Shown here one piece after another: positions 14,760 through 33,712 of a stretch of DNA of 64,000 nucleotides. Where the stretch lies: NCBI RefSeq assembly GCF_002943565.1, contig NZ_PJCH01000006.1:1-64000 (forward strand). Reading direction: 5' to 3'. This DNA is from Hyphococcus luteus. Its GTDB lineage: Bacteria > Pseudomonadota > Alphaproteobacteria > Caulobacterales > Parvularculaceae. Under the pieces are notes generated by a model. The model was not told the origin of the DNA, ran no database searches, and saw only the letters and a program-made list of their open reading frames with translations. How positions within the stretch are numbered: the first letter of the stretch is position 1; each line of letters starts with the position of its first letter. The position numbers and the translations under genes are program-made.

Positions 14760-14784
14760 GCCCTGAAATGAATATTTTGTAGAT

Positions 14785-14814: not shown

Positions 14815-14888
14815 ATAAATGCATATGCTGCACATTTCCTGGGCTGGAGGGCCTCATCGTCGCAATCAGTAACGCCCGAAGCCAAGCA

Positions 14889-15362
14889 ATGCTGGCTTTG
14901 AAGTCGGCTAAACACGACGTGGTGCTTGGCACGAACCTTCAAGAGTTGCGGCAGGCTCGCGGACTGAACCAGACCGAGCTAGGTCGTCGGCTGGGCGTCA
15001 GTCTTCAGCAGATCCAGAAATACGAAAGCGGCAGGGACCGCATGGCGGCGTCCACCGCATTTCGCGCTGCGGAAAGCCTCGGCGTGGAGATCGGGGCGCT
15101 TTACGAAGGCCTAGACACCGGGTCTCGGCGCGCAAGCTCGAAAAACCCGAAGAGCCCGGTCCTGCTCGTTCCCCTCAACGCCGGGCCGCGCTCGGCGGCG
15201 TCGCGGAAGTCCGAGCTGATTGACCTTATCCGGAGCTATCAGGCGATCGAGAACGCCTCCTTGCGCGCGTCCGTGCGCCAGATCGTCAGGCGGCTGGCGG
15301 CGGATGGGAACGCGTCGCGGAAAGCCGGCCGCGCCGGCGCCGGAGGGACCGATGCCCGCTGA
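14889..15362 (+). CDS. XRE-family transcriptional regulator
   Basis: A 157-aa protein with an N-terminal HTH_3 domain: GTNLQELRQARGLNQTELGRRLGVSLQQIQKYESGRDRMAASTAFRAAESLGV. The C-terminal part is Ala/Ser/Arg-rich with a predicted helix (SELIDLIRSYQAIENASLRASVRQIVRRL), as in many alphaproteobacterial regulators of this type. It overlaps the ECF sigma start by 11 bases and is the first gene of the XRE-fecI-fecR-receptor-isopeptidase series, so it probably controls that operon. Confidence 0.8.
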   Translation: MLALKSAKHDVVLGTNLQELRQARGLNQTELGRRLGVSLQQIQKYESGRDRMAASTAFRAAESLGVEIGALYEGLDTGSRRASSKNPKSPVLLVPLNAGPRSAASRKSELIDLIRSYQAIENASLRASVRQIVRRLAADGNASRKAGRAGAGGTDAR

Positions 15363-15963
15363 CGACGGCCTTCCTTCCGCCTCTTCTGCGGCGCCGGACG
15401 CGTTCGACCTTGAGGACGCCTATCGCTCCTATCACGGGCCCCTCGTCTCCTTCCTCAGCAACAGGCTCCCTGAAAAGTCCGTCGCCTCCGACATCGCTCA
15501 CACGGTGTTCGCGGCCCTCGCGGCGCGGCCCTCACTCGATGCCGTCCGCAATGTCCGCCAGTACCTTTTTCGCGCAGCCCGCAATCAGCTCGCAGACTAT
15601 TATCGCAAGGAACACGCGCAGGAAGAGCGCGCCGAACGGTTCAAGGCCGATCCCCTCGCTGCGAACGGACAGGAAGCGCCCTGCCCCGAAGACGAAGCGA
15701 TCCGGCGCGACCAGCTGAACCGGCTGCGCGCCATCATCGCCGCGATGCCGGTGAAACGTCGGCAGGTGTTTATGCTGGCGCGCTTTCAGGAATTGACCGA
15801 AAGTGAGATCGCCGAGCGGCTCGGCATGAAGCCCGACGCCGTGAGCAAACACGTCTCGCGCGCCATGCGCGACTGCAAGAAGGAAATGCTGAAGATCTTC
15901 GATGATGCGCCGGCGAACCAAGATGCGGAAGACCTGAATGGGCGCGGCTCCCGAAAACGCTGA
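15352..15963 (+). CDS. fecI: FecI-type ECF RNA polymerase sigma factor
   Basis: A 203-aa sigma-70 family factor. The sigma-2 region spans about residues 18-85 (LEDAYRSYHGPLVSFLSNRL, YLFRAARNQLADYYRK). The sigma-4 region spans about 130-185 (AIIAAMPVKRRQVFMLARFQELTESEIAERLGMKPDAVSKHVSRAMRD). An upstream in-frame start at 15220 would lie wholly inside the XRE gene; the ATG at 15352 has GGAGGG just before it and gives a standard ECF length. The next gene overlaps by 26 bases and encodes its FecR partner. Expected to be released when the downstream TonB receptor signals occupancy. Confidence 0.9.
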   Translation: MPADDGLPSASSAAPDAFDLEDAYRSYHGPLVSFLSNRLPEKSVASDIAHTVFAALAARPSLDAVRNVRQYLFRAARNQLADYYRKEHAQEERAERFKADPLAANGQEAPCPEDEAIRRDQLNRLRAIIAAMPVKRRQVFMLARFQELTESEIAERLGMKPDAVSKHVSRAMRDCKKEMLKIFDDAPANQDAEDLNGRGSRKR

Positions 15964-16981
15964 CAGCGCCGTCTTCGACGAGGCGACGCGATGGTTCTGG
16001 CGGCTCAAGGGCGGCGCCGCGACGCCCGAAGACCGTCGCGCCTTCGAGGACTGGCGCCGCGCCGATCCCCGCCACGCCGCCGCCTACGATCAGGCGTGCG
16101 ACGTCTGGGACGCTGTCGGCGAGCTCGATGATTTGCGGGAATTGGCGGCTGCGCCGGACTTCGGGCGGCCCGTGAAAGGGAAATTTTCCGTTGGAGGATG
16201 GGACGGTGCGGCGCCGTCTCGCCGGTCCGTCGTCTACGTCGCCCTCGCCGCTTGCCTTGCGCTGGCGCTCCTGCTTCCCGCCATCCTTTACACTGAGCCC
16301 GCCTGGCTCTTGCCCGGTGTGCATGCGACCCGCATCGCCGAAACCGCCGAGATAGCCCTTCCGGACGGCAGCGCCGCAGAGCTTGCGCCCAAAAGCAAAA
16401 TCAAAGTCGCCTATTCCGGTGCCGAAAGGCGCGTCTATCTCGAAACAGGCGAGGCGTTCTTTGAGGTTCGCGCGGACGATGCGCGCGCGTTCTTCGTTTC
16501 CTCCGGCGACGCGGAAATCCGCGTCACCGGCACGAAGTTCAATGTCCGCCAGGGGGCGGCGGGCGTCACCGTCTCCGTCGCGGAAGGCCATGTGGAAGTG
16601 CGCCGGCTGCGGAACAATGCTGACGCAAGCGCCGCCGGGGCGCGGCTTTCCGCCGGAGAGGAAGTCGCGGCGCCGGCGAGCGGCGAGGGCCTTTCCGATG
16701 TCGTCGACGCGCCGCCCTCTTCCATCGCCTCATGGCGCGCCGGCCGCCTTGTCTACAGGGGCGCGCCCTTGCGCGAATTCATCGCCGATGCGAACCGCTA
16801 TTCGGATGTTTCAATCGTCGTCGCCGACGACAGCCTCCTCGACTTGCCCCTCGTCGCCTCGCTTCGCACCGATCAGATCGACGCGATGATCGACGGCCTG
16901 CCCGACATTCTTCCGCTCGATGTCGACCGGTCGCGAAAGGACCGGATCGTTCTGCGGCCGGCGGCCCGGACGACCAATTGA
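15938..16981 (+). CDS. fecR: FecR-family inner-membrane sigma regulator
   Basis: A 347-aa protein. Residues 1-60 form the cytoplasmic FecR N-terminal (DUF4880-like) domain (ATRWFWRLKGGAATPEDRRAFEDWR). A single membrane segment lies near 90-110 (VVYVALAACLALALLLPAIL). The periplasmic FecR domain contains LPDGSAAELAPKSKI, LETGEAFFEV and GTKFNVRQGAAGVTVSVAEGHVEV. A C-terminal domain (APLREFIADANRYSDVSIVV) resembles the short STN-like DUF4974. It binds the sigma factor in the cytoplasm and the signalling domain of the TonB receptor in the periplasm. Confidence 0.92.
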   Translation: MGAAPENADSAVFDEATRWFWRLKGGAATPEDRRAFEDWRRADPRHAAAYDQACDVWDAVGELDDLRELAAAPDFGRPVKGKFSVGGWDGAAPSRRSVVYVALAACLALALLLPAILYTEPAWLLPGVHATRIAETAEIALPDGSAAELAPKSKIKVAYSGAERRVYLETGEAFFEVRADDARAFFVSSGDAEIRVTGTKFNVRQGAAGVTVSVAEGHVEVRRLRNNADASAAGARLSAGEEVAAPASGEGLSDVVDAPPSSIASWRAGRLVYRGAPLREFIADANRYSDVSIVVADDSLLDLPLVASLRTDQIDAMIDGLPDILPLDVDRSRKDRIVLRPAARTTN

Positions 16982-17198
16982 TTTTCTGAAGTTTGCCGCC
17001 AATCGTTTTTGGCTTCCGAACTTCGTCGAACTCTCGCCGGACATGTGTCGCACAGCGCCTGTCGCCTGCTGCTTTCAAAAAAAGTCTGAACCCCTGTCAG
17101 GTTTTCGCCGCTGGCGACGACAGCCTCACTGGGAACGGCAAGCCGCGTCGGGACGCAACGTCCCGCGCGCGACACGCCGGATATCAGGAGGGGTGTCA

Positions 17199-19853
17199 AT
17201 GCACAAGAAAATGAAAACCGTAATGGCCGCGTCCGTGTCGGTCCTGGCCATGAGTTGCGCGGCTGAAGCCGCGCGTTCCGACACGCAAGCTCTTGTGCGC
17301 GGCGAGAGCGTCAAGATCGAGTGGAATATTCCGGCGCAGCCGCTGACGGAGGCGCTCATCGCGTGGTCGGAACAGTCGAATTACGTGATTTTGATACAGG
17401 ATGATCTCGCCGCCGGCGTTCAAAGCCGGGCGCTCATCGGGTCATACACCAGTTTCGAGGCGCTGGAGCGTTTGCTGTCGCCAAGCACCCTTACCTACAA
17501 AATCCGTAACGACAAGACGCTTGTCGTCACGCCGCGGCTTCAGCCGGCGTCGCTTCAAACGGATCGCCCGCAAACGCGCTTCGCGATGGCGGAGCAAGGG
17601 ACAAGCGCAGTCGCAGAGCGCCTCGCCTCGGCGCAGCCGGAAGCGGAACGGAACGAACAGCGCGGCGCGTCGGGCGACACAGATGAAGTCGTCGTCACCG
17701 GCACGCGCATTCGCGGGGCGCAGCCGGCGGCGCCGGTCCACACGATTACCCGCCGGGACATCGAGCTCTCAGGACAGTCGCAGACCGGCGAGCTGCTGCG
17801 CGCGCTGCCCCAGACGTTCAGAGGCGGCATCAACCCTACCGTCCAGCCGACGACGGTGAACACCAATTCGGGGCTCGGCGGCGATTCAACCGTCAATCTG
17901 CGCGGCATGGGGCCCGACGCGACGCTCATCCTCGTCAATGGCCGACGGCTGGCGCCCATCGGCGGCGGCGAAACCACAGATGTGTCCGCGATCCCGCTCG
18001 CAGCGCTCGATCGCGTCGACGTGCTGCTCGACGGCTCATCAGCGCTCTACGGCGCCGACGCCGTCGCCGGCGTCGTCAACTTCATCGTCGCCGACGATTA
18101 TGAAGGCGCCGAGCTGCGCGCCCGCGCCGGCGGCGCAACGCAAGGCGGCGGCTTCGAACAAGCCTACAGCGCCGCTGCGGGAACGCGCTGGCAGGGCGGC
18201 TCGCTGCTTGTCGGCGCCGATTATCTGAAACAGAACCCGATCTTCGCCGGCGAGCGGGAATTTTCCGAAACCGCCGGACCGTTCAACTCCCTGTTGCCGG
18301 CGAACCGTCAATGGTCGGGCTTCATGTCCGGCAATCAAGAACTTTCGAGTTTCGCCGAAGTCGACGTCATCGGCCTCTACACCAACCGGCGCACCAGCCG
18401 CACGACCGAATACGGCGCCGGCGGCTTCGCCGATGCCAAAGCCATCGACACGGAATCGTTTCTCATCGCCCCGCGCGTGACGTTCGACCTGTCGGAGGAT
18501 TGGACCGCGCAGGTCGAAGGTTCGGCGGCGCGTAGCACGCGCGACAGCGCAACCACCGATAATTTCGGCGGCGAATTCGACGCCGACTCGAAGAACACAG
18601 CCTGGACCATCGGCGCATCGACAGAAGGGAAAGTCGCCCGCCTTCCGTCCGGGGACTTTCGGGCGGCCGTCGGCGGCGGCTATCGCGAAGAAACGCTCGA
18701 CTCTGATCTCGGCGGAACGCTGCGCAGCGGAACGCGCAACGTTGCATTCCTTTTCGCCGAGGCCTCCGCCCCGCTTGTGTCTCCGTCCGACGACCGGCCA
18801 GGACTGAACCGGCTCGACCTCAATGTCGCTGTCCGCGTCGAGGATCACAGCGGCTTCGGCGCGGCGACAACGCCGAAACTCGGCCTCCGCTACGCGCCTG
18901 TTCCCGATCTCACCGTGAGAGCAACCTGGGGAAAGTCGTTCCGGGCGCCGCGCTTCGACCATTTGCTCGCCGACCATGTGGTGACGGTCTGGAGCGCGCC
19001 CAATCTCGGCTCCGTCAATCCAGGCCTTGCACTTCTCAGTTTCAGCGGCAATCCAGAGCTTGAGCCGGAGCGCGCCACATCCTGGACCGCCGGTTTCGAC
19101 TGGACGCCGCACTTCATGCCGGCGTTCGATCTGTCGTTCACCTGGTTCGACATCGACTTCGAAGACCGGATCGTCAGCCCGATCGTCAATCTCGGATCCG
19201 CGCTGTCCGATCCCGCTAACGCTCCGTTCATCGACCGTGACCCATCGTCTACGGCGCAATCGGCGATCATCGGCGCCGCCGACCAAGTCTACAACATTTC
19301 TGGGATGCCCTATGATCCGGATGCAGTCCTCGCCATCGTCAATTCCGGATTCGTAAACGCCAGCGCACAACAGGTGCGCGGCGCGGACGTCTCGTTCCGC
19401 TTCGCGCCCGGCGACATCGTGTTTTTCGGCGATTTCAGCTGGCTGATGATCGACACGCAAACAATACCAACCCTTCCCCTGACGCGGCAGTCCGGCTTCA
19501 TCTTCCAGCCAGCGAAGTTTCGCGGGCGCGCCGGCGCCAGCTGGGAAATCGACGACAGCTTCACAACGAATGCGATCCTCAACCATGTCGCAGGATCGAC
19601 TGACAATGTCGCGGCGCCCCCGGCCGAGATCGCCTCATGGACGACGCTCGACATCACGCTCCAATACCGGCTCGGATCGGTCGCCACTGCGCTTGACGGA
19701 CTGGAAGCCTCTCTCTCGGTCATAAACGCGCTTGATCAGGACCCGCCTTTCGCCGCGGGCGGCGGCGTCGCCTTTCCAGGTATGTTCTTCGACAGCGCAA
19801 ATACATCGCCGGTCGGACGGTTCGTCGCCGCGACGCTTCGCTACACATTCTAA
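17199..19853 (+). CDS. TonB-dependent receptor with STN signalling domain, lasso cluster
   Basis: An 884-aa outer-membrane receptor. The ATG at 17199 has AGGAGGGG about 5 bases upstream; the long open frame before it is not translated. A signal peptide ends near AAEAARS. The STN domain (about residues 35-105, WNIPAQPLTEALIAWSEQSNYVILIQDD) is the periplasmic transducer found in FecA-type receptors. The plug begins near DEVVVTGTRIRG and the barrel ends with ATLRYTF. Together with FecI and FecR this makes a cell-surface signalling unit. In this setting it most likely imports the lasso peptide (or a related ligand) and reports it to the sigma factor; that substrate is inferred from context. Confidence 0.9.
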   Translation: MHKKMKTVMAASVSVLAMSCAAEAARSDTQALVRGESVKIEWNIPAQPLTEALIAWSEQSNYVILIQDDLAAGVQSRALIGSYTSFEALERLLSPSTLTYKIRNDKTLVVTPRLQPASLQTDRPQTRFAMAEQGTSAVAERLASAQPEAERNEQRGASGDTDEVVVTGTRIRGAQPAAPVHTITRRDIELSGQSQTGELLRALPQTFRGGINPTVQPTTVNTNSGLGGDSTVNLRGMGPDATLILVNGRRLAPIGGGETTDVSAIPLAALDRVDVLLDGSSALYGADAVAGVVNFIVADDYEGAELRARAGGATQGGGFEQAYSAAAGTRWQGGSLLVGADYLKQNPIFAGEREFSETAGPFNSLLPANRQWSGFMSGNQELSSFAEVDVIGLYTNRRTSRTTEYGAGGFADAKAIDTESFLIAPRVTFDLSEDWTAQVEGSAARSTRDSATTDNFGGEFDADSKNTAWTIGASTEGKVARLPSGDFRAAVGGGYREETLDSDLGGTLRSGTRNVAFLFAEASAPLVSPSDDRPGLNRLDLNVAVRVEDHSGFGAATTPKLGLRYAPVPDLTVRATWGKSFRAPRFDHLLADHVVTVWSAPNLGSVNPGLALLSFSGNPELEPERATSWTAGFDWTPHFMPAFDLSFTWFDIDFEDRIVSPIVNLGSALSDPANAPFIDRDPSSTAQSAIIGAADQVYNISGMPYDPDAVLAIVNSGFVNASAQQVRGADVSFRFAPGDIVFFGDFSWLMIDTQTIPTLPLTRQSGFIFQPAKFRGRAGASWEIDDSFTTNAILNHVAGSTDNVAAPPAEIASWTTLDITLQYRLGSVATALDGLEASLSVINALDQDPPFAAGGGVAFPGMFFDSANTSPVGRFVAATLRYTF

Positions 19854-19868: not shown

Positions 19869-21968
19869 ATGGTGAGCATTCAAATGAATGTCGGCCGCTG
19901 CGCCGTATTCGCCTTCGCCGCAGCGCTCGCGCTCACAGGCCGCATGTCGGCCCATGCAGAAGACGAAGGCCTCCGAGCTCTCGTCGAAATAACGGACTTT
20001 ACGGGCGTTTCGATCTCGCCGGACGGACGCTATGCGGCCTACCGCGCGGAACGTGCGTCGGTCGAGGAAAACGCCTACAGCTCGGAGTGGTTCATCTATC
20101 GTCTTGACGGCGGCGCATCACCGAAACGCGTCGCGGATGGCGGCGCGCCGATCTTCACCAGCGGCTGGGCGCTCGGCGAATGGCCGCAATGGTCGAGCGA
20201 TTCCGGATGGTTGTATTTTCGCGCGCTCCATGACGGCGAGGTCCAGCTGTGGCGGGCATCCGTAACCGGAACAGCCAAACGCCTCACGGACGATCCTGCG
20301 GACGTCATCGCCTTCGACGTGCTCCCGGACGGAAACCTCGCCTTCGAGGTCGGCGCGACCCGGGCCGAAATCGAGCAAGCCGAACTTGACGAATATTATT
20401 CCGGCATCCTGATCGACGGGACCGTGCCCCTCGGCCAGGGCCTCTTCCGCTCCGGATTCCATCACGGGCGCCTCGCAACGCAGCGCTATCTCGGCAAGTG
20501 GATGAATGTGACCACCTTGCTGGGCGATCGTCCGACGCAAATCAAAGTCGTCGATATCCGAACGGGCCGCGTGCGCAAAGCGCGAGACAAGGAAGCCGCG
20601 GCTTTCCGGAAGAATACCGAGGGTCCGACGCTCGATGGCGCGCCGGGCCGCTCGGAGCACATGCATGTCACAGAGGACGGCCGGGCGGTTTGGCGGAGCA
20701 AGGACGAAGGAGAACGCACGCTTCATGCGCGCATTGACGACAAGGAAATCATATGCTCCGCGTCTGAATGCGCGCGGCCGATCGCCTGGGTCTCGTGGCG
20801 CGGCTTGCGCCACGAAGTCATCTTCGCGACCCGCGACCGCGATCGCGGCGACGCCATGACCGTCCTTAGCTGGAATATCGACCGCAATTCGGTTCGCACC
20901 GTCCGCGAAGCGCCAGGGCTCCTGCATAGCGGGCGCGTCATCGGTGTTGGCATCGGCTGCGGCGTCGGCGACCGGTATGCGTTCTGCGTCTCCGCGGACG
21001 CGAACACACCGCCCCGCATCGAACAAGTCGATCTCGACAGCGGCGAGGCGCGCGTCATCGCTGCGCCCAATCGCGACTTCATCCGTTTGTCGGCGCCGCG
21101 TGCAGAGTTGATGCAATGGCGGGACAGCCAGGATCGCGAGTTCACCGGATACTTCATCCCTGCAGCCGCCGGCGAGACGCGGCCTTCGCCATTGTTCATC
21201 CTGTACTATGCCTGCCAGGGCTATTTGCGCGGCGGGCCCGGCGATGAATGGCCGCTGACCTATCTCGCGGAAGCTGGCGTCGCGGTGTTGTGCATCAGCG
21301 CTTATCCGTCCCCGGACGCCGGCGGCCCGGTCGTAAAAGAATATGATACCGCCTTGGCCGGCATCGATGCCGCAATCGATGTGCTTGCCGCTCGCGGCAT
21401 CGATCCCGCCCGCGTCGGCATCGGCGGTTTCAGCTTCGGCGCATCCGTAGCGATGTGGGTCGCCTATCACTCCGACCTCATCGCCGCCGCCTCGCTCGCG
21501 ACACCTGATGTTACCGAGACTTACTACTGGCAACGCGCCCTGATGGGCGAAGCCTTTAAGGGACCGCTGTCGAGCATTTGGGAGCTTGCCGCGCCCGATG
21601 CAACGCCGGAGCAGTGGCGCCGGATTTCGCCAAGCCACAATCTCGACCGTCTGCGATTTCCTCTGCTGATGCAGATCCCGGAGCAAGAGTATCTCGTTGC
21701 GCTCGAATATTTCGTGCCGCTGATCGAATCTGGCGCGCCCACCGAAGTTCACGTCTTCCCGCATGAACCCCATTACACGTTTCAGCCGCGCCACCGGCTC
21801 GCCGCCTATCAGCGAAATCTCGACTGGTTCCGGTTCTGGCTCCTCGGAGAAGAAGCGGGCGGCGCTCGCCCGGCGCAATTCGAGCGCTGGCGAAAGCTAA
21901 GAGAACGCGCAGAACCGGGCGAAGCCCGCTCCGGCGACGACAAGCCGGCTCATGCGCCGAACGATTGA
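19869..21968 (+). CDS. Lasso peptide isopeptidase, AtxE2-like (S9 prolyl oligopeptidase fold)
   Basis: A 699-aa protein with a signal peptide (cleavage near MSAHAEDEG), a beta-propeller N-terminal domain and a C-terminal alpha/beta-hydrolase domain. The nucleophile is Ser522 in GIGGFSFGASVAMW (GxSxG); the His probably lies in FPHEPHYTFQP. AtxE-type enzymes cut the isopeptide bond of the lasso ring and linearise the peptide. It starts 15 bases after the receptor gene, so imported peptide could be opened in the periplasm. Its 3-prime end overlaps that of the synthetase gene on the other strand by 19 bases. Confidence 0.9.
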   Translation: MVSIQMNVGRCAVFAFAAALALTGRMSAHAEDEGLRALVEITDFTGVSISPDGRYAAYRAERASVEENAYSSEWFIYRLDGGASPKRVADGGAPIFTSGWALGEWPQWSSDSGWLYFRALHDGEVQLWRASVTGTAKRLTDDPADVIAFDVLPDGNLAFEVGATRAEIEQAELDEYYSGILIDGTVPLGQGLFRSGFHHGRLATQRYLGKWMNVTTLLGDRPTQIKVVDIRTGRVRKARDKEAAAFRKNTEGPTLDGAPGRSEHMHVTEDGRAVWRSKDEGERTLHARIDDKEIICSASECARPIAWVSWRGLRHEVIFATRDRDRGDAMTVLSWNIDRNSVRTVREAPGLLHSGRVIGVGIGCGVGDRYAFCVSADANTPPRIEQVDLDSGEARVIAAPNRDFIRLSAPRAELMQWRDSQDREFTGYFIPAAAGETRPSPLFILYYACQGYLRGGPGDEWPLTYLAEAGVAVLCISAYPSPDAGGPVVKEYDTALAGIDAAIDVLAARGIDPARVGIGGFSFGASVAMWVAYHSDLIAAASLATPDVTETYYWQRALMGEAFKGPLSSIWELAAPDATPEQWRRISPSHNLDRLRFPLLMQIPEQEYLVALEYFVPLIESGAPTEVHVFPHEPHYTFQPRHRLAAYQRNLDWFRFWLLGEEAGGARPAQFERWRKLRERAEPGEARSGDDKPAHAPND

Positions 21969-23686
21969 ATCCAGTATTCGACGCCGGCGAGCGTGACGAG
22001 CTGCGTGAAACTCGCGTCGGGGAACGGGCCCGCTTGTCGCATGCACGCGAACACCGCTTCCCGGTCGAGAATGCCCTCGCGCGCGAGCCGTCCCTCCATC
22101 AGGAGCGCCTCGATCTCGGACTTGTGCTCTCGATAGATCCCGGCGATCAGCCCCGTGAGGTCGCCTTTGGTTCGCCGTGCAATCGTTTCCGCCGGAAGGA
22201 GGTTGGAGAATGCGTCGCGCGCGACGGCGCGGTTCCTTCCGCCGCTGACCCACATCCATGAGGGAATGCCGAGGCAAAGCTCGATTAAAGGGCGGCTGAG
22301 CAGCGGATAACAGACCTGCACATCAAGGTCGCGTTCGCCGCCGTCGCTGACGCTGACGGCGCTTGCGATCGACGCCGTATGCTCCAGCTTGCCGGGCGGC
22401 GCGCCGGTATTTTCCGTGAACCAGAGATGCGCAGGCGGCGAAGCGGGGGCAACGCCGGGCATCAGAAATGCAATGTTGCGAGGCCACAGCTTCGGTTTCG
22501 CCCAATAGACCTTGCGCAAGGCGTAGCGCGCCGCCCGCCAAACGCTCGCTCTGTGCAGCGTTGCGACATCCCTCGCCGCGCGCGCAAAACAAGGCCCGGG
22601 TCCGAAAGCGCGCAACGCATCAGCGGCGGGGGCGGCGGTCGTCAAATAGCAGAATACATTATCTCCTCCGCCGCCGGAAAAGAGCATGTCCGCGCCCGCC
22701 TCGTCGATTGCGCCTCTGACACCGCTATCGATCATCGCCCGCCAGGAGATCGCCTGCGGAGCCGGCGTGCGCTGGCGCGAACGAGGCGCCAGCGACGCGC
22801 CGGCGGCGTCGAGCTTTACCTCGTGCAATCGCGCGCCCAACGCTGACGCGACCAGTCCGGCCTGGCGCCGTTCGTCGCCCGCTGGATCGTCGGTCGCGAA
22901 TGTGACGCAGGAAAAGGAGGCGCCGAGGTCGCGCAGGCATGCCGCGATGATGGAGGAATCGAGGCCGCCCGAAAGCTCGAGCATGATATGCGAGGAGCGC
23001 GCCGCCCAGGCGCCGACCGAGCTCAAGACTTCAGCCCGCAGCAATCGAACCGCGTCGTCATAGCGGCGAATGCGGCTGTCGTTCCTTGTATAGGCCCAGG
23101 GGCTCCATGCGCATATCTGCGACATAGACCCATCGCGCGAAATCCGCAGCCGCATGCCCGGAAGAACCTTTTCGACCCCCGCGAGGCATGTCTCCTGTGT
23201 GGGAACATGCGGAAATGCAAGATATCGCCCGAGCGCCGTCCAATCCATCGCCGGAACCGAGAGGCCAGCGGCGATTGCTGTTTCAAGGTCTGAAAACAGC
23301 CAGATTGCGCCGCCCTGTCTCGCAACGAGGCATGGCGCCATGCCTGAGGGGTCGCGCGTCACGTCGATCGATTGTTGCCGATCGTCGATGCGGAACGCGA
23401 CGAAACCTCCCCACATGTCCGAGAAAAAGACGCTGCGGCTGGGCCCGCCGGATGCCGCGCCAGCTATGCGGCCGATGCGGCTTCGAGGAAATGATGCGCC
23501 GACGATAAGCCCTGCGCCGTCATCGGCTGCTTTGGAGGCCGCATCTTCATGAACAAGCACGCAAAGCCGGCCTCGCAGCAACGCTGGCTCGAGTCCGTGA
23601 CGCCGTCCTGCGCTGATGATCGCGTCAAACTGGGACCGGGGCGTTTCGCTGCAGGAAATCAGCGCAAGAAACCGGTCCGGGTTCAT
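21950..23686 (-). CDS. Lasso peptide macrolactam synthetase (C protein, asparagine-synthetase-like)
   Basis: A 578-aa protein. The ATP-PPi loop SGGLDSS is at residues 239-245 and the second nucleotide-binding region reads DMLFSGGGGDNVF. The N-terminal part matches the glutaminase-like domain of asparagine synthetase but starts MNPDRF with no catalytic Cys2, as expected for C enzymes. It adenylates the ring Asp/Glu side chain (here Glu9 of the core) so that the freed Gly1 amine closes the isopeptide bond. The ATG at 23686 overlaps the stop of the B gene as ATGA; the open frame runs 67 codons further upstream inside the B gene and should not be used. Confidence 0.93.
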   Translation of the reverse strand: MNPDRFLALISCSETPRSQFDAIISAGRRHGLEPALLRGRLCVLVHEDAASKAADDGAGLIVGASFPRSRIGRIAGAASGGPSRSVFFSDMWGGFVAFRIDDRQQSIDVTRDPSGMAPCLVARQGGAIWLFSDLETAIAAGLSVPAMDWTALGRYLAFPHVPTQETCLAGVEKVLPGMRLRISRDGSMSQICAWSPWAYTRNDSRIRRYDDAVRLLRAEVLSSVGAWAARSSHIMLELSGGLDSSIIAACLRDLGASFSCVTFATDDPAGDERRQAGLVASALGARLHEVKLDAAGASLAPRSRQRTPAPQAISWRAMIDSGVRGAIDEAGADMLFSGGGGDNVFCYLTTAAPAADALRAFGPGPCFARAARDVATLHRASVWRAARYALRKVYWAKPKLWPRNIAFLMPGVAPASPPAHLWFTENTGAPPGKLEHTASIASAVSVSDGGERDLDVQVCYPLLSRPLIELCLGIPSWMWVSGGRNRAVARDAFSNLLPAETIARRTKGDLTGLIAGIYREHKSEIEALLMEGRLAREGILDREAVFACMRQAGPFPDASFTQLVTLAGVEYWIQSFGA

Positions 23687-24372
23687 ACGACGAGAATCGG
23701 CGTGAACGACTCGGCGTAGTCGATGGTCTCGTTGAGTAAAATGTCTTTCGATTGCACCCAGCAGTGAGCGCCATAGGGGTTCATCCGAACGCCAATCACC
23801 AGATCGGCGATGATGCCGTCGCCGAAAAGAAAGTCTAGCAGCGCTAGCGAATCGGGAAGGCAGTTTTGCGGCGCCGGAAATAAGCACCGCGCCGCTTGAA
23901 AATCCGCCGCTCGCGATTCAACGACCGCCTGACAGAACGGGCCTCGCCCGGCGAGATCTCCCTTTCTTTGGCGAAGCTGGGCAATGCTTCGCGCAAATCC
24001 ATTCCGCCGAAGCCGCGGACCGCTGCGGCACAGGCAGGTCATCGCTTTCATCGTAGCCAACGCGCCGCTACGCCGGTGAACCTGCGTGTTTTCAAGCGTG
24101 CTTTGTTGTGGCGAGATGATCGCTGGCGGCGAGGGAACGCCGTCTATTCCGTCTCCCGGCTCGAGAATTTCCGCATGGGAGAGGCGACCGAGAAGATCGG
24201 GCGAAACCTCGTCGCCGGCAATGAAAGCCTTGAATGCGGCTTCCAGCACGTCCTGAAGCATGAAGTATCGATCCTCGCGGACGTCCAGAAAGACCGGCCG
24301 TGCATCGACATAGCAATATGCGAGATCGGAACGGAATCGGTATTCCATGTTTTCACTCTGCATGAGCGACAT
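23683..24372 (-). CDS. Lasso peptide B protein: fused RRE and leader peptidase
   Basis: A 229-aa protein. Residues 10-75 form the PqqD-like leader-recognition domain (RRE): YRFRSDLAYCYVDARPVFLD, then RYFMLQDVLEAAFKAF. The C-terminal transglutaminase-like protease has Cys171 (PAPQNCLPDSLALLDFL) and His203 (NPYGAHCWVQ) and ends TPILVV, as is usual in the family. The third catalytic position, 12 residues after the His (as in McjB C150/H182/D194), is Glu215 (LLNET) instead of Asp. It cleaves the leader after the Thr-Lys pair so that cyclisation can follow. Located 36 bases downstream of the precursor gene. Confidence 0.9.
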   Translation of the reverse strand: MSLMQSENMEYRFRSDLAYCYVDARPVFLDVREDRYFMLQDVLEAAFKAFIAGDEVSPDLLGRLSHAEILEPGDGIDGVPSPPAIISPQQSTLENTQVHRRSGALATMKAMTCLCRSGPRLRRNGFARSIAQLRQRKGDLAGRGPFCQAVVESRAADFQAARCLFPAPQNCLPDSLALLDFLFGDGIIADLVIGVRMNPYGAHCWVQSKDILLNETIDYAESFTPILVV

Positions 24373-24408: not shown

Positions 24409-24546
24409 TTAGTCGGCCGAAAGTTCGTCAACCGGCTGACGTTGCAGGAACGCCTCTTGGGTCACATGGGACGGAATTCCCTTCGTGACCTCGCTGGCGA
24501 CGCCGAGATCGATGATGTCGTCTTCGTGTGTTTCGATCTGTTTCAT
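24409..24546 (-). CDS. Lasso peptide precursor (A gene)
   Basis: A 45-codon gene read directly from the DNA. The leader has 22 residues (MKQIETHEDD then IIDLGVASEVTK) and ends in the LGxASxxTK motif usual for proteobacterial lasso leaders, with the essential Thr at position -2. The core starts GIPSHVTQE: Gly1 and Glu9 would form a nine-residue macrolactam. It continues AFLQRQPV and ends DELSAD, 23 residues in all. Arg14 or the bulky Phe/Leu/Gln residues after the ring could be steric plugs. A strong GAAAGGAGAG ribosome site lies about 7 bases before the ATG. It precedes the B and C genes on the same strand. The core is not one I recall among described lasso peptides. Confidence 0.93.
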   Translation of the reverse strand: MKQIETHEDDIIDLGVASEVTKGIPSHVTQEAFLQRQPVDELSAD

Positions 24547-24718
24547 GACTTCTCTCCTTTCGGTTGCGCCATGGGGATCATGGCGGGGAGGAGTCTAGGC
24601 GCGCGGCGCTGCTATCCCTAAGCAATCCTGAGATAATCGTCAGACTATTGTGACGGCGATTCAAGCGGTTGGCGTTCGCCCGGAAAATTCTTCGGAAATA
24701 TTGTCCGTACAGGATGTT

Positions 24719-25366
24719 TCAGGGGCTCGTATGCGCGGCGGCGAGGATCTGCGACGCGAGGCGGATGCGACGGCGGTGATAGGCGCCGGCGCGGTGGGCG
24801 AGCTCCGGGAAGTCGGCCACCATGTACGCGTTCTCGATGCGCCGCAATTCGGCCTGCCGGTTTGCGATCGCCTCGTCTTCGTGCAGACGGAACACCCTCA
24901 GGCGAAGCGCGATATCTGACAGCGCGGCGCAAAGCCGGTCATTTGAGGAGAGCGCCATGACGGCGTTAAACGCCGCCGCCGTGCGCTGCTCGATGCTCGC
25001 GTCCCTGTCTTCCGCTTCGATCGGGCGCGGCTTCGGGGGCGAGCGCGCGCCCGCGGCGCGGGCGACGGCGAGATCGATCAGCGCGCCATGGGCGTCATAG
25101 AGATGGCGCAGACCCTGTTCCGTAATGAGCGGCGCGAAAAACCCTTCATTCGAGTGTGAGACGAGCAGCCCGGCGCCCACAAGCCGGTTGAGCGCGTTTC
25201 GCACCGGCGTCGGGCTGACGCTGTCGGCCGCCGCGATCTCGTTGACGTCGATCCGCGCGCCCGGTGCAAACGCGCCGGACGACACGCGCTCCGTGAGACT
25301 CCTGTATACGCTTTCAGTTATCGAGATTCGACCGGCCATCCTGCGTCGGTGTTGTTCGCTTTGCAT
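24719..25366 (-). CDS. GntR-family transcriptional regulator
   Basis: A 215-aa protein with an N-terminal winged helix (ITESVYRSLTERVSSGAFAPGARIDVNEIAAADSVSPTPVRNALNRLVGAGLL) and a C-terminal helical FCD-like domain (LYDAHGALIDLAVARAAGARS, AYHRRRIRLASQIL). It lies upstream of the lasso precursor on the same strand with a 172-base gap, so it may control the biosynthetic arm. The start may instead be the ATG at 25339. Neither start has a convincing ribosome site. Confidence 0.8.
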   Translation of the reverse strand: MQSEQHRRRMAGRISITESVYRSLTERVSSGAFAPGARIDVNEIAAADSVSPTPVRNALNRLVGAGLLVSHSNEGFFAPLITEQGLRHLYDAHGALIDLAVARAAGARSPPKPRPIEAEDRDASIEQRTAAAFNAVMALSSNDRLCAALSDIALRLRVFRLHEDEAIANRQAELRRIENAYMVADFPELAHRAGAYHRRRIRLASQILAAAHTSP

Positions 25367-25657
25367 GTCTCGCGCCGGCGCCGGTGCGTCAGACAGCGGC
25401 GCAAGGCGTATTCACCGCGCGTTTGCCGCGCGTTTGCACCGCGCCGGCGCGATGCGCTGGCGCTGAGTTCAGTGTGTCTCCAAATGATAAAGTTAACCTT
25501 TAGTATTTAATTACGCTTTCAGATTCTACCGGTGATTGTTACGATTATGTGACAATAAAGATCGCCGGAAATTCTTGCATCCATTCAAAACGCCAACCGC
25601 CAAGCCAGGAAGCGCCTGGCGGCGGTTTCGAAATCTTTGGAAAGGGCCCGCCGAACG

Positions 25658-26434
25658 ATGCCCCGTCTCCGCGCCGTCCAGGCGTTTGTCGATGAAGCTC
25701 AATCACTGCGCGCACCGTCGGACCTCAACCGGTTGCTCGACGCCGTGACCAAGGACATGGGCTTCGACTATTTCGCGCTGATGCATCATGTGGATTTGAG
25801 CGGATACAGCGAGGCGCTGACCCATATGGAGGAGGGCGAACTTGTCGCGCTCGGCACCTATCCCGAACGCTGGATCGAACAATATATCGCCGACAACATC
25901 GTCGCCAACGATCCTGTCCTGCTCGCCAGCCATCGCACCAATATGGGCTTCGCCTGGTCCGACATTCCCGCGCTCATCCCCATGACCGACGCCCACCGGC
26001 GAATCCGCGAGCGCACCGTCAAGGCCGGCATCGACGAAGGCTTCACCGTTCCCGCCAACGTCCCCGGCGAGGCTAACGGCAGCTGCAATTTCGCCATGGC
26101 GACAGGACGCGCGCTGCCGCGCGACAATCTCAAAATGGCGCAGCTCGTCGGCGGCTTCGCCTTCCAGGCCGCGCGCGCCATGGTGCTGAACGCGTTTCCG
26201 CAAGCCAGGCGCCCGCCGAAAGGGCCCTTGACCCAGCGCCAGCTCGAATGCGTGCTCTTCGCCGCGAAAGGCAAATCCGACTGGGAGATCGGCGCGATCC
26301 TCGGCATCTCGCAAGGCACCGTGAAACGCCATATCGAGGACGCGCGCGCCCATTACGAAGTCGGAAGCCGCATGCAGGTCGTGATGCGCGCCCTCTTCGA
26401 AGGCCATATCGGGGTCGTCGACGCGCTTCGGTGA
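25658..26434 (+). CDS. luxR: LuxR-type quorum-sensing regulator
   Basis: A 258-aa protein with an N-terminal autoinducer-binding domain that keeps the ligand-pocket residues (Trp, Tyr, Asp and Pro in RWIEQYIADNIVANDPV, and a later Trp in GFAWSDI). The C-terminal LuxR HTH reads LTQRQLECVLFAAKGKSDWEIGAILGISQGTVKRHIEDA. The ATG at 25658 is preferred over an in-frame TTG 21 bases upstream. It is followed by a 30-base palindrome and the luxI gene, a complete AHL signalling pair. It may also control the neighbouring phyH gene and, less certainly, the lasso cluster. Confidence 0.9.
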   Translation: MPRLRAVQAFVDEAQSLRAPSDLNRLLDAVTKDMGFDYFALMHHVDLSGYSEALTHMEEGELVALGTYPERWIEQYIADNIVANDPVLLASHRTNMGFAWSDIPALIPMTDAHRRIRERTVKAGIDEGFTVPANVPGEANGSCNFAMATGRALPRDNLKMAQLVGGFAFQAARAMVLNAFPQARRPPKGPLTQRQLECVLFAAKGKSDWEIGAILGISQGTVKRHIEDARAHYEVGSRMQVVMRALFEGHIGVVDALR

Positions 26435-26436
26435 AC

Positions 26437-26466
26437 CCGTCAATGTGCCGATCGGCACAGTGACGG
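26437..26466. promoter_or_regulatory. Lux-box-like palindrome between luxR and luxI
   Basis: Arms CCGTCA (26437-26442) and TGACGG (26461-26466) flank a perfect 16-base palindrome TGTGCCGATCGGCACA (26444-26459); only the pair 26443/26460 is mismatched. It begins three bases after the luxR stop and ends 49 bases before the luxI start, where a LuxR binding site is expected. It is longer than the usual 20-base lux box. A stem-loop terminator for luxR is an alternative, but no T-run follows. Confidence 0.75.
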
Positions 26467-26515
26467 CTGTGGGCCTGTTGGTGAATCCTCCACGGGAAGC
26501 TACGTGGAGGACTTC

Positions 26516-27133
26516 ATGCTTTTTCTCATCGACCGGCGCAATCGCGACGCGTTTCCCGAATTCCTGCGATCCATGCATCGCGACCGCAAGCGTATGTTTG
26601 TCGATATTTTCGGCTGGCGCCTCGCCCACGATAACGGCGAAGAGCGTGACGCGTTCGACGATGACAACGCGACCTATCTGGTGCTCTGTGATGACGTCGG
26701 CTGCCATGTCGCTTCCGTGCGCCTCTTGCGCACCGACCGGCCGCATCTTCTCGACACCCTCTTCTCCGACCTCTGCGAAGGCGAGGTCCCGCGGGGCGGC
26801 GATATTCTCGAAATCACCCGCCTCTGCCTCCCATTGCGTAAGAAGACCCGCATCGCGGCGCGCAACATTCTGGCGCGCGGGATCATCGATTATGCGGCGC
26901 TCGCCGGCGTCGCCAGCTACACCGCCGTCTGCCATATGGCGTTTCTTTCCGAGCTCCTGTCCGCCGGATGGCGCTGCACGCCGCTTGGCTTGCCGCAGGC
27001 CGTCGATGGCGCCGCCGCCGGCGCCGTTCAGATCCACATGGAGGAGAACACCCGCGCCCTGCTTGACGAAGGCTGGCGATGTCCGCGCGACGCGCCGCGC
27101 CTCACTCTGAGCCAGTCCGACCTTGCAGCCTGA
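26516..27133 (+). CDS. luxI: Acyl-homoserine-lactone synthase (LuxI)
   Basis: A 205-aa autoinducer synthase that makes acyl-homoserine lactone from SAM and acyl-ACP. Conserved features: R-x-D region MHRDRKRMFVDIFGW (with the Arg, Phe and Trp used for SAM), SVRLLRTDRPHLL, and the catalytic-core EITRLCLP stretch. The ATG at 26516 has GGAGG five bases upstream; an in-frame GTG at 26504 is less likely. Same strand as luxR and followed by phyH after a 18-base gap. The acyl chain cannot be predicted. Confidence 0.92.
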   Translation: MLFLIDRRNRDAFPEFLRSMHRDRKRMFVDIFGWRLAHDNGEERDAFDDDNATYLVLCDDVGCHVASVRLLRTDRPHLLDTLFSDLCEGEVPRGGDILEITRLCLPLRKKTRIAARNILARGIIDYAALAGVASYTAVCHMAFLSELLSAGWRCTPLGLPQAVDGAAAGAVQIHMEENTRALLDEGWRCPRDAPRLTLSQSDLAA

Positions 27134-27151
27134 ATTTTGGGAGCCGCTCCG

Positions 27152-28111
27152 ATGATTACCGCCGCATCAGTCGCCAAGGCCAGTTTGAATGTCGAGACAG
27201 ACGCCTTAACGCAGGCGCTTCTTTCCGACGGGTATCTCATCGTTCCACGTCTTCTCGACGCGGAAGCGATCGACAGGCTCTGCGCTGAACTCGATCCGCA
27301 TTTTACAGCGGCGCCGTTCGGCGACGGCCTCTTCTATGGCGGCGAGACGAAACGTTTCGGCGCCGTCCTGAAGCGCTCGCGCGCCGCGCAAGGCATAGCC
27401 TTGCATCCGGCCGTCATGAATCTTGTAGAGCGCGTCCTCGGCGACTGGTGTCAGTGTCTGCAGCTCAATCTGACGCAAGCGATCGAGATTCACCCCGGCG
27501 CGCCCGTGCAGGTTCCCCATCGCGATCAGGACATGTGGGCGGGCCCGAAAGGCGCCATGCACTATATGGTCAACGTCATGTGGGCGCTAGACGACTTCAC
27601 CGCCGAAAACGGCGCGACGCGCCTTTGGCCGAAAAGCCATCTCGGCGACCAGGACGCGATGCTTCCCGAGGAAGAGGCCGTACCGGCGGTGATGCCGCGC
27701 GGCTCGGCCTGTTTCTTTCTCGGCTCCACCCTTCATTCGGGCGGCGCCAATCGCAGCGCGGCGCCCCGGCGCGGGCTCATCGTTTCCTATTGCCTCGGCT
27801 GGCTCAAACCCTGGGAGAACCAGTGGCTCGCCTATCCGCCGCCGGTTGCGCGGGAATTCCCGCCCGAGATCGCAGCGCTTGTGGGCTACCGGCAGCATCT
27901 TCCGAGCCTCGGCAATTATGAAGGCCAGTGTCCGAGCCTGCTGCTCGGCGATGATCCGCTCCCGGACCATCTCCCGTTCACCGATGCGCTGAAGGAGGAG
28001 CATCATGAGCTTATGCGCCAATATTACGCCGGCCTCGGCGCCGGCGCCTCACCCGTTCAAACATCCGACGGAGTCCGCGATGAAGGCGGCGCATCCCTGG
28101 CGGCCGGGTGA
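27152..28111 (+). CDS. Phytanoyl-CoA dioxygenase (PhyH) family protein
   Basis: A 319-aa Fe(II)/2-oxoglutarate dioxygenase. The iron-binding H-x-D lies in VPHRDQDMW, the distal His in STLHSGGANRS, and the Arg in PRRGLIVSY probably binds 2-oxoglutarate. The ATG at 27152 is preferred (GGGAG upstream) over a TTG at 27137. It directly follows luxI, an arrangement I recall as common in sphingomonads and relatives, suggesting a quorum-regulated hydroxylation of a small molecule. The substrate is unknown. Its 3-prime end overlaps the next gene by 32 bases. Confidence 0.88.
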   Translation: MITAASVAKASLNVETDALTQALLSDGYLIVPRLLDAEAIDRLCAELDPHFTAAPFGDGLFYGGETKRFGAVLKRSRAAQGIALHPAVMNLVERVLGDWCQCLQLNLTQAIEIHPGAPVQVPHRDQDMWAGPKGAMHYMVNVMWALDDFTAENGATRLWPKSHLGDQDAMLPEEEAVPAVMPRGSACFFLGSTLHSGGANRSAAPRRGLIVSYCLGWLKPWENQWLAYPPPVAREFPPEIAALVGYRQHLPSLGNYEGQCPSLLLGDDPLPDHLPFTDALKEEHHELMRQYYAGLGAGASPVQTSDGVRDEGGASLAAG

Positions 28112-28970
28112 GCTCGTCGACTTTACGGACGCGGACGCGCCTTCCGGATACGCGGCCGCCTTCCGCCTCGCCGCTGGGGGCGTCCATCTAAGCCGCGGCC
28201 GTCTCGCCGCCAATGACGGCGTCGAACTCGGCGCCGCGCAGCTGACAATCGCGGTCGTCGAAAGCGGCGCCTTCGACTTCGAATGGCGCGCCGGCGGCGG
28301 TCTCACCAGCGCGCCGCTCCTGCCGAACTCGGCGCTCATCGCGCCGCCCGGTCGCCCCTGTTGCTGCCGCTGGGCCGCGCGCCCGACGATCCTCGCGGTC
28401 GCGTTCGAGGGCGGCTTCATCGGAAAACGACGCACTGAGACCGGGGTTCGCGGACATCATGAAATCGCCTTTCGCTGCGGCCTGCGCGATCCGGAGATCG
28501 ATGCGATCATCGCAAAGCTGCGGCTCGAACTTGAATTCGGCGGCTGGTCGGGCCCGCTCTATCTCGAATCTCTCGGGGTCTTTCTCGCTGTCCACCTCCT
28601 GCGCAACTACGCCGGCGCGAAGCCTCCCCGGACGCGCGGAACCGGTCTCGACGCGCGCCGCTTGCGCGATGTCGTGGAGTATATCGAAGCCCATCTCGGC
28701 GAGGAGGTGACGCTTGATGATCTCGCTGGCGTTTCCGGATTGAGCGCTCATCATTTCGCGAGCGCCTTTAGGACATCGGCGGGCGTCGCGCCGCACCGTT
28801 ATTTGCTCGAGCGCCGCATGGCGAGGGCGTGCGACCTTCTCGCGAAGTCCCAAGCAACGGTGACGACAGTGGCGCACGCGCTCGGCTTTTCGAGCCACGG
28901 GCATTTTTCGGAAACCTTCCGGCGTTTCGTCGGCGTCACGCCGTCCGAATACAAGTCGCAGAGCCGGTGA
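28080..28970 (+). CDS. AraC-family transcriptional regulator
   Basis: A 296-aa protein from the ATG at 28080 (a longer frame starts at 28005). The N-terminal cupin-like sensing half is followed by a C-terminal double HTH (LRDVVEYIEAHLGEEVTLDDLAGVSGLSAHHFASAFRTSAGVAPHRYLLERR, then ATVTTVAHALGFSSHGHFSETFRRFVGVTPSEYK). Overlap with phyH suggests they are cotranscribed. Probably controls the dioxygenase pathway. Confidence 0.88.
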   Translation: MKAAHPWRPGELVDFTDADAPSGYAAAFRLAAGGVHLSRGRLAANDGVELGAAQLTIAVVESGAFDFEWRAGGGLTSAPLLPNSALIAPPGRPCCCRWAARPTILAVAFEGGFIGKRRTETGVRGHHEIAFRCGLRDPEIDAIIAKLRLELEFGGWSGPLYLESLGVFLAVHLLRNYAGAKPPRTRGTGLDARRLRDVVEYIEAHLGEEVTLDDLAGVSGLSAHHFASAFRTSAGVAPHRYLLERRMARACDLLAKSQATVTTVAHALGFSSHGHFSETFRRFVGVTPSEYKSQSR

Positions 28971-29015
28971 TCGTTGAGCCGTAGAACATAACGACCAGCA
29001 ACAGGAGCGTTTGGA

Positions 29016-29522
29016 ATGGCGGGAGAACCCATGCTTGTCGCGCGGCATTGCGCCGTCATCCTCATAGAAGAACGCCTCGCCCGCGATCTCGCGGTGACCG
29101 GCGGGCCGGTGCAATGGTCGCTGGCGGCCGACCTCGCCGGCGCCATCTCCGCCCCGCTGCTTGATCTGCGTCTTGAAAGCGACTTTGTCGTCGATAGCGG
29201 TCTGATGGCGAAATTTGCAGACCTGAAACGCCGGTCGCTCATCCTCTTCGGAACGCTGCTCGAAGGCGCGGTCACGCAGATCGCGCTCACCATGCTGCTC
29301 GAAGGCTATGACGTCTATATTTGCGCCGATCAGGTGCGATCGGCCGATCCGCAGCGCGAAGCCGTCTTTCACGAACGCATCCGGTTTTGCGCCGGCCATG
29401 TGGTCACCCTGCCCCAGATCCTTCTCGAACTTCTCTCGCGCGTTGAGGACGAAAAGGCCCGTCAGTCCCTGAAGGCCGTGCTGGAACTGGGCGCCCGCCG
29501 CCAGGGCGCCGCCGGGCTCTAG
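29016..29522 (+). CDS. Isochorismatase-like protein, probably without catalytic Cys
   Basis: A 168-aa protein. The region LFGTLLEGAVTQIALTMLLEGYDVYICADQVRSADPQREAVFHERIRFCAGHVVTLPQILLEL follows the second half of the isochorismatase/nicotinamidase fold ('GVETxxCVxxTALxLLxxGYxVxVVxDAxxSR...'). The position usually held by the nucleophilic Cys reads T-Q-I, so hydrolase activity is doubtful. An AGGAG lies nine bases before the ATG. It ends the luxR-luxI-phyH-araC series. Domain assignment is by pattern only. Confidence 0.6.
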   Translation: MAGEPMLVARHCAVILIEERLARDLAVTGGPVQWSLAADLAGAISAPLLDLRLESDFVVDSGLMAKFADLKRRSLILFGTLLEGAVTQIALTMLLEGYDVYICADQVRSADPQREAVFHERIRFCAGHVVTLPQILLELLSRVEDEKARQSLKAVLELGARRQGAAGL

Positions 29523-29880
29523 GCGGCCGATAAGCCATCGGCCCGCCCGAAGCCGCCACAATAATTCTTATTGGGCCGTCTTCGCCGTCCGGTGACGATC
29601 CCTGGCGCGGCCGGACCCTTGGTCCGGATACGGACGGCGCGCAAAAGCGCGCCGGCATTCTTTCGATTCGTTTCCCCAGGCAGTCGGGGGTGGGCGGCGG
29701 GCGGTTCTGCGCGAGGGCGCCGGCCGCGCAAGGGGCCGGGATCTTTTTTCTTTGAATGTCTTGAAGCCTCCTACCTGGAGCCCCTTGCCCGCCCGGCTGA
29801 CGCCCTCGCGCCGCCCCTCCCTTCCGCCGCCCACCCCCGCCTGCCGGGGAAACTGGTGCGGGAGGAGATGGAGGCGAATG
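29523..29880. other. GC-rich leader before ardA
   Basis: About 360 bases with no gene I can support. It holds a terminator-like hairpin (29720-29748) and a GGAGG ahead of ardA. It also marks the change from the quorum-sensing operon to the transfer element, so the left end of the element may lie here. Confidence 0.4.
29720..29748 (+). terminator. Intrinsic terminator-like hairpin
   Basis: Arms CCGGCC (29720-29725) and GGCCGG (29734-29739) enclose an 8-base loop; a run of six T residues starts 4 bases after the stem. It could end the isochorismatase-like transcript. Confidence 0.5.
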
Positions 29881-30447
29881 ATGTGCGAAGAAACGGAAAC
29901 GGGAACGCCAGCGGAGAACCCGGCGCCCCATGCGCGGGACCATGTCCCGCGCATCTACGTGGCCTGTCTTGCAAGCTACAATGCGGGCGTCCTCCACGGA
30001 CGCTGGATCGATGTGACGGACCCGGACGAAATCCGGGCGCAAGTCGCCGCCATGCTGTCGGCGAGCCCGGAGCCGGACGCCGAGGAATGGGCGATCCACG
30101 ATTATGAAGGATTCGAAGGCGCCGAAATTTCCGAATATGCGGGGTTCGATCAGGTCTGCGACCTGGCCGCATTTATCGAGGAGCATGGCGCGCTCGGCGG
30201 GAAACTCGTCGCGCATTTCTGCGGCGATCTCGACGAGGCGCGCGCCGCCTTCGAAGACTATGCAGGCGAATATAAAAGCCTTGAGGATTTCGCTTACGAC
30301 TTCACCGAGCAGACGGGCGTCACCATTCCCGATAGCCTCGCCCTCTATATCGACTATGAGGCCATGGGCCGCGACATTGAACTCAATGGGGACGTCTTCA
30401 CCATCGAAACGGGCTTCGAGGAAGTCCACATTTTCTGGGCGCGGTGA
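29881..30447 (+). CDS. ardA: ArdA-like antirestriction protein
   Basis: A 188-aa, strongly acidic protein that mimics DNA and blocks type I restriction enzymes after conjugative entry. Recognisable stretches: PRIYVACLASYNAGVLHGRWID, WAIHDYEGF and YKSLEDFAYDFTEQTG. ATGs at 29878 and 29881 both follow GGAGG; the second has the better six-base spacing. A long open frame extends upstream but lacks homology. It overlaps the next gene by 4 bases (GTGA). Confidence 0.88.
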   Translation: MCEETETGTPAENPAPHARDHVPRIYVACLASYNAGVLHGRWIDVTDPDEIRAQVAAMLSASPEPDAEEWAIHDYEGFEGAEISEYAGFDQVCDLAAFIEEHGALGGKLVAHFCGDLDEARAAFEDYAGEYKSLEDFAYDFTEQTGVTIPDSLALYIDYEAMGRDIELNGDVFTIETGFEEVHIFWAR

Positions 30448-30929
30448 CCGCCATGACCTTCACCGAAAAATTCGGCGTCTTTGTCTGCGAAGGCGACGCC
30501 ATCACTTGCGAGGTTGACGGCTTCGATATCGCCGCCCGCATCCTTCGCGACGACAGTCCCGACGCGCCGGACGAGCGCCAGGACGGCTTCTGGCCATCCG
30601 AATATATCGGCGATCCGGGATTCATCGGTCCCGGTCCCAACTGGCGCCAGCGTCTCGCCGAGGCGCGCACGAAAGCCGAAACCATCATGGCCGCATGGCG
30701 CGAGGACGAATGGTTCTATTGCGGGATCGTGCTTTCTGTCTCGCGCGAAGGCGTCACCCTTTGCGAGCACGCCGCGACCCTGTGGGGCGTCGAGGCGAAT
30801 TACCCCGGCGCCGACAACTCCTATCTCACAGACGTCGCAAATGAGCTGCTTCCCGAAGCTTTAACCGAAGCGCACGCAACGCTCGCGCGTCTGTGCGCCG
30901 GACATATCCAAACGGCGGCGCGCGGCTGA
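30444..30929 (+). CDS. Conserved hypothetical protein of transfer elements
   Basis: A 161-aa acidic protein (or 158 aa from the ATG at 30453). It contains FTEKFGVFVCEGD, PDERQDGFWPSEY and CGIVLSVSREGV. The GTG start overlaps the ardA stop as GTGA, so translation is coupled. I know the gene as a regular neighbour of ardA and parB-like genes in alphaproteobacterial elements, but its function is not known to me. Confidence 0.65.
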   Translation: MTAMTFTEKFGVFVCEGDAITCEVDGFDIAARILRDDSPDAPDERQDGFWPSEYIGDPGFIGPGPNWRQRLAEARTKAETIMAAWREDEWFYCGIVLSVSREGVTLCEHAATLWGVEANYPGADNSYLTDVANELLPEALTEAHATLARLCAGHIQTAARG

Positions 30930-30980
30930 CGCCGCGCGCCGGTTTCATTTTTCCGCCAACCAACCGAAGGAGGCCGACCC

Positions 30981-33526: not shown

Positions 33527-33551
33527 GCGCTCGTCCGCTCACTGCCGGGAT

Positions 33552-33583
33552 CGCCCGGACCCCGCAGGGTCCGGGCGGTTTTT
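33552..33583 (+). terminator. Strong intrinsic terminator after DUF736 gene
   Basis: Arms CGCCCGGACCC (33552-33562) and GGGTCCGGGCG (33567-33577) form a perfect 11-bp stem with a CGCA loop, followed by a GTTTTTAT run. Confidence 0.85.
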
Positions 33584-33712
33584 ATCGTTAAGAAAAGCCA
33601 GTTTGGCCTGAAACTTGAACGGTCTTTAGGCGGATTAAAGGGCGATTCCCGCGGGTCGCCGGGCATGCGAACCGCATTCTTCTCGCCCGTTTCGAACAGG
33701 GGAGTTGACGCC

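Follow-up and report, generated by a model that had tools for sequence, protein, structure and literature searches.

Isopeptidase-containing lasso peptide clusters of Alphaproteobacteria, such as those of astexin-2/3, benenodin-1 and sphingopyxin I, have been reviewed (PMC9266682), and the role of isopeptidase-type lasso peptides was described there as enigmatic. In these clusters, and also in those on plasmids of Caulobacter and Asticcacaulis, a GntR gene precedes the precursor, and an isopeptidase, a TonB receptor and sigma/anti-sigma genes are present with no ABC transporter. The same arrangement is found in the locus of Hyphococcus luteus that we analyzed within a stretch of 64,000 nucleotides (termed "the window"), however here luxR-luxI-phyH-araC adjoins gntR and is conserved along with it, and exchange of a cassette between loci could be demonstrated at the level of sequence comparison. 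The sphingocin cluster of Sphingomonas BPH, as far as the accessible part of its report describes it (PMC11006600), likewise has a 45-aa benenodin-like precursor with an acidic tail and an adjoining isopeptidase and TonB receptor, whereas its core differs from that of the window and neither luxI linkage nor exchange is mentioned in that part. The position of phyH next to luxI is also known from sphingomonad luxR-luxI-phyH neighbourhoods (PMC3704786, PMC4288048), and the word "lasso" has no occurrence in PMC4288048.

Taken as a whole, the locus is best explained, in our opinion with high confidence, by a known lasso cluster anatomy in which a 6.8-kb cassette has been replaced inside a conserved regulatory frame. 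Comparable exchanges exist in other chemistry. In the pyoverdine/FpvA variable locus, product genes and the matching receptor are exchanged inside conserved flanks, and in cyanobactin precursors the core alone is exchanged in the same manner, however the joins in the window lie inside the precursor and receptor genes.

Precursor gene and cluster enzymes

The precursor gene (gene A) lies on the minus strand at 24409..24546, with leader codons 1-22 at 24546-24481, core codons 23-45 at 24480-24412 and the stop at 24411-24409, and its 45-aa translation consists of the leader MKQIETHEDDIIDLGVASEVTK and the core GIPSHVTQEAFLQRQPVDELSAD. A preliminary description had proposed a 45-codon lasso precursor gene here, and the ORF bears this out by passing both family cut-offs, with 42.9 bits against NCBIfam NF033522 benenodin (cut-off 33, E 3e-11) and 41.2 bits against Pfam PF24178 Subterisin (cut-off 27). 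The anatomy claimed for it is present in the translation, where the leader ends in TK with Thr at -2 and a 23-residue core follows with Gly1 and Glu9 (TK|GIPSHVTQE). The announced ribosome site was found as a Shine-Dalgarno AAGGAG (24554..24559, minus) 7 nt upstream of the ATG, and B and C do follow immediately downstream on the same strand. The core lacks cysteine, and since Asp and Glu are also missing at positions 7 and 8, Glu9 is the sole standard ring acceptor. Masses computed for the core are 2518.245 for the lasso form (monoisotopic, minus one water) and 2536.256 for the linear form.

Gene A shares the leader motif, Thr-2, Gly1, acidic acceptor, length and LSAD-like tail with benenodin/subterisin precursors (NF033522, PF24178) and differs from them by a core not found elsewhere, with a predicted 9-residue Gly1-Glu9 ring in 23 residues. 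Its first 30 residues are 70-80% identical to the same-position precursors of two same-genus genomes, and a search of genome contigs using a 3-row precursor alignment recovered just the two relatives already known. The acidic tail is ordinary (relatives' precursors end in GLSED, GLSAD, GLVED and ALSAD), and because this tail is common and the isopeptidase-cluster architecture known, gene A by itself represents a known class with a new core. The novelty of the core, also part of the preliminary description, held up in that searches of PMC open full text, PDB, PLSDB plasmids and ~300 related genomes gave no identical core; the core is new because the specificity cassette was swapped as a whole, and one of the two junctions falls within gene A. 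These comparisons confirm gene A as a predicted benenodin/subterisin-family lasso precursor with a new core, and its putative product belongs to the known class II (cysteine-free), isopeptidase-type lasso peptides, with threading predicted. A hairpin between genes A and B (-30.3 kcal/mol) does no better than shuffled sequences (z -1.29), thus no attenuator is claimed. Upstream of gene A (24547-24718), TACGGACAATAT and GACAATATTC-like elements are kept even in a genome of another genus (G033), and are candidate GntR or sigma sites.

The B protein (23683..24351, minus; alternative start 24372) matches lasso_biosyn_B2 with 54.1 bits (cut-off 33) and has a cysteine-protease domain with invariant Cys164 and His196. 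Its N-terminal region carries a conserved FLD..DRY motif and gave no Pfam RRE/PqqD match; the predicted model is poor (mean pLDDT 47), with the N-terminal strand-helix part at moderate confidence, and from motif and weak model together we suggest an RRE-like leader-binding domain. The C protein, an Asn-synthase-like lasso cyclase (21950..23686, minus), overlaps with B by 4 nt (ATGA) and has a PF00733 match of 97.7 bits with the ATP motif SGGLDSS, whereas its scores against the two specific lasso-cyclase models in NCBIfam stay under their cut-offs. Convergent to B/C is an AtxE2-family lasso isopeptidase (19869..21968, plus) with 565.7 bits against NF033523 (cut-off 400), which retains the Ser/Glu/His positions when aligned with AtxE2 (5txc), the Ser being Ala in the AtxE2 variant 5txe. 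All three genes belong to the exchanged cassette. The TonB-dependent receptor (17190..19853, plus) consists of STN (residues 65-115), plug (180-295) and barrel (398-846). The genes called from 15 to 29 kb include no ABC transporter.

Four further lasso B/C loci exist in the same genome (C12:711451, C12:724464, C2:232k and C2:242543). Clear precursors are seen in two of them, GDIYPGVESLDPNSRIN and GEPGDDAEFTGEGNTKPLA, one has an unusual short ORF following C (..EETK GFDEGLSDHQGGREQQ), and no precursor was recognised at one of the four. In the window itself, homologues of GajA (594 bits) and GajB (541 bits) lie next to each other at 9008-12678 and form a putative Gabija anti-phage pair beside the lasso locus.

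Regulatory frame and exchanged cassette

On one side, the conserved frame comprises the genes of a LuxR-type AHL-responsive regulator (25637..26434, plus), a LuxI-type AHL synthase (26504..27133, plus), a PhyH-family dioxygenase adjoining luxI (27152..28111, plus), an AraC-family regulator (28005..28970, plus) and the GntR-family regulator preceding gene A (24719..25366, minus), together with promoter and leader, and on the other side a FecI-type ECF sigma factor (15220..15963, plus; start uncertain), a FecR-type anti-sigma/transducer (15938..16981, plus) and the receptor STN. We compared the window with L058 (genome G025, contig cut inside phyH) and L059 (G005), the nearest loci and both of them MAG contigs from different bins, and with L064 (G033). 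The luxR-luxI-phyH-araC block is in place in G025 and G005, which belong to the same genus, and in G033 of another genus. Within the family, a window-type GntR occurs in 4 of 62 genomes, and a close LuxR in the same 4. PhyH as a lasso-tailoring enzyme was rejected; in the window lineage it goes with luxI and the frame, not with the cassette, and is therefore more likely to be part of the AHL block. The LuxI of G025 (L058 89-727) lacks 20 aa in frame and is diverged in an N-terminal patch, although its flanks are 98-100% identical to the window, and these differences possibly reflect another small exchange.

Nucleotide identity of the window to the two same-genus loci is ~87-99% across luxR, gntR, promoter and leader. 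Compared with L058, LuxR (99%) and GntR (97%) are nearly the same, whereas B (31%), C (35%), isopeptidase (43%) and TonB (42%) are not; the baseline between L058 and L059 is 91, 87, 81, 89, 89 and 96% for LuxR, GntR, B, C, isopeptidase and TonB, respectively, by which L058 and L059 carry orthologous versions of one cassette, unlike that of the window. In 150-nt bins, identity to L058 is 96-100% from 26471 to 24522 and ~50% beyond 24371. Informative sites, counted as window+L058 against L058+L059, turn over in the same way, from 81:1 in LuxR, 65:6 in GntR and 7:1 in leader codons 1-19 on the frame side, to 1:26 in the rest of gene A, 32:262 in B and 55:669 in C on the cassette side. The left junction is thereby placed at 24488..24496 (minus, gene A codons 17-20), where identity collapses within 8 nt: 24496 (codon 17) is the last site at which the window equals L058 against L059, and 24488 (codon 20) starts a run in which L058 equals L059 against the window. 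It sits two codons before the core, which begins at codon 23.

With this join the leader is a frame sequence while B is part of the cassette. B thus has to act on a leader with which it has perhaps not co-evolved, and gene A could be a relic or non-producing, beside enzymes mismatched by the recombination. We regard such a fate as unlikely, because the leader motif LGxAS..T, Thr-2, Gly1, Glu9, the ribosome site and the active-site motifs are intact, and core, B, C and isopeptidase all lie on one side of the join.

The right junction of the exchange lies at 17690..17710 (~17,700, plus), around TonB residue 170 and between STN and plug, and is resolved to 100-nt bins on C374, a G005 contig not joined to that genome's A-B-C contig. 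Between C374 and the window the match extends across FecI, FecR and the receptor's STN part, with 93-97% identity at 17301-17700; starting at 17701 it drops to 55-65%, apart from one bin at 70%. The C374 barrel shares 92-100% identity with the L058/L059 barrels; the receptor is thus split into STN within the frame and plug and barrel within the cassette. Outside the joins, identity to G005 is 87-88% at 24479-37013 and ~83-91% at 12840-17700. Given the conserved flanks and sharp joins, ~6.8 kb consisting of core, B, C, isopeptidase and plug-barrel have been exchanged as a block. A separate observation concerns G005 contigs C374 and C624, which bear two different FecI-FecR flanks within one MAG (FecR 81% and 88% identical to that of the window), representing a second locus or mixed strains.

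Could the joins be artefacts of assembly, with the window or the MAG contigs chimeric at conserved sequence? G025 and G005 are indeed MAGs with short, low-coverage contigs, and two FecI/FecR flanks occur in the G005 bin, however both joins yield full-length in-frame genes at domain boundaries (leader/core in gene A, STN/plug in the receptor), L058 and L059 agree though they come from different bins, the gene order in G033 is the same, and similar incongruence is seen in few-contig genomes such as G163 (5) and G211 (1), which renders chimerism quite improbable.

For the exchange itself, rpoB regions of the window are 93% identical to G025 and 87-89% to G005, and since these relationships agree with the frame, the window lineage is more likely the recipient of the cassette. 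Searches of 398 genomes from the order, 385 from the class and PLSDB revealed no donor, the best C reaching 36-39%. Genes for ArdA, a ParB-like protein, DUF736, a DUF3363 relaxase and a TraG coupling protein lie at 29818-41547, and judged by this content the flanks of the locus sit on a conjugative element shared with G005.

Recurrence and linkage to luxI

The sample for recurrence consisted of fifty additional lasso loci from the order that are QS-linked or related. Near-identical LuxR/LuxI with unrelated cassettes were seen in L131-133/L135-136, L142/L143, L137/L139, L152/L153 and L154/L156, and similar cassettes in different frames in L142/L148 and L147/L154. Among 20 pairs with LuxR/LuxI of at least 90% identity, B/C identity is at least 75% in 10 and below 50% in the other 10, with none in between, these being counts of pairs and not of independent events. 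In AU tests, based on quick trees and on clades named after identities were seen, cassette data rejected the frame clades (p from 1e-4 to 3e-72), and frame data rejected the cassette clades (p 0.003 to 1e-8). Frame/cassette incongruence, as far as these alignments and trees can tell, is seen again in four or more further locus pairs of the order and in both directions, and the cassette swap seems to recur in related bacteria.

The edges of the cassette vary. In L132/L135 and L131/L136 the cassette also ends on the right where STN meets plug, while their left edge lies within gntR, between the DNA-binding and effector parts; in L152/L153 it is at the end of phyH, and in other pairs it is blurred. 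A leader/core join suggested by blastn ends in L142/L143 and L137/L139 was not upheld by base-level alignment and was dropped, because function keeps the leader conserved, and identity upstream of it is patchy. As left edges elsewhere differ, the sharp leader/core join is so far specific to the window lineage.

Vertical inheritance without exchange, in which core, enzymes and receptor merely evolve faster than regulators under diversifying selection, fits the natural hypervariability of lasso cores and the TonB plug/barrel being more variable than STN in several pairs, but it is the least probable account of all, as conservation of the L058/L059 cassette genes is on a par with that of the regulators (81-96% versus 87-91%), the identity break is confined to 8 nt, frame clades are rejected on cassette data and vice versa, and L142/L148 and L147/L154 have cassettes in common without common frames.

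The 299 related genomes contain 115 luxI genes and 103 lasso B loci, and 42 of the luxI genes have such a locus at a distance of 2.5-4.3 kb, a strong linkage against an expectation of ~0.6, the p value being descriptive only since the sampled genomes are related; it is this proximity to lasso B that sets the block apart from the sphingomonad luxR-luxI-phyH neighbourhoods. In the open literature, we found no description of luxI linked with isopeptidase-type lasso clusters, nor of frame/cassette exchange in such loci. Lasso loci of family f2 (L065, L145-L146, L149-L151, L155 and L158-L163) also have luxR/luxI close by, with no GntR, PhyH or isopeptidase match within the stretch searched, and are a different QS-lasso arrangement.

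Proposed mechanism and significance

In the mechanism that we propose, B would attach to the leader and cleave behind Lys-1, and C would close the Gly1-Glu9 ring with loss of one water, leaving a 14-residue loop and tail. The neighbouring isopeptidase would reopen the ring and so recycle the peptide. The exported lasso would be recognised by the cognate TonB receptor, and the signal may pass via STN, FecR and FecI. AHL and GntR could gate the lasso operon, the luxI linkage being the part of this step that is seen. The simplest route for the cassette swap would be homologous recombination in the conserved flanks, possibly aided by the conjugative element, and such a swap would place a new peptide under the resident quorum-sensing, GntR and FecI/FecR control.

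That core, isopeptidase and plug-barrel move together while the signalling domain stays is natural genetic evidence, and the strongest hint, that these three form a cognate set, the plug-barrel being the portion of the receptor that would bind the ligand. The in-gene joins may also offer natural breakpoints for lasso precursor engineering, and the strong luxI linkage points to AHL and density as conditions of culture by which silent clusters may be induced. More tentatively, as a possibility we take seriously while still holding it in some doubt, the quorum-linked lasso loci of this order may constitute a combinatorial private-signal system, where a fixed chassis of LuxR/LuxI, GntR, FecI/FecR and STN accepts interchangeable cassettes of peptide, enzymes, isopeptidase and plug-barrel. 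If true, strains would change their peptide specificity by one recombination event, with control and signalling left unchanged.
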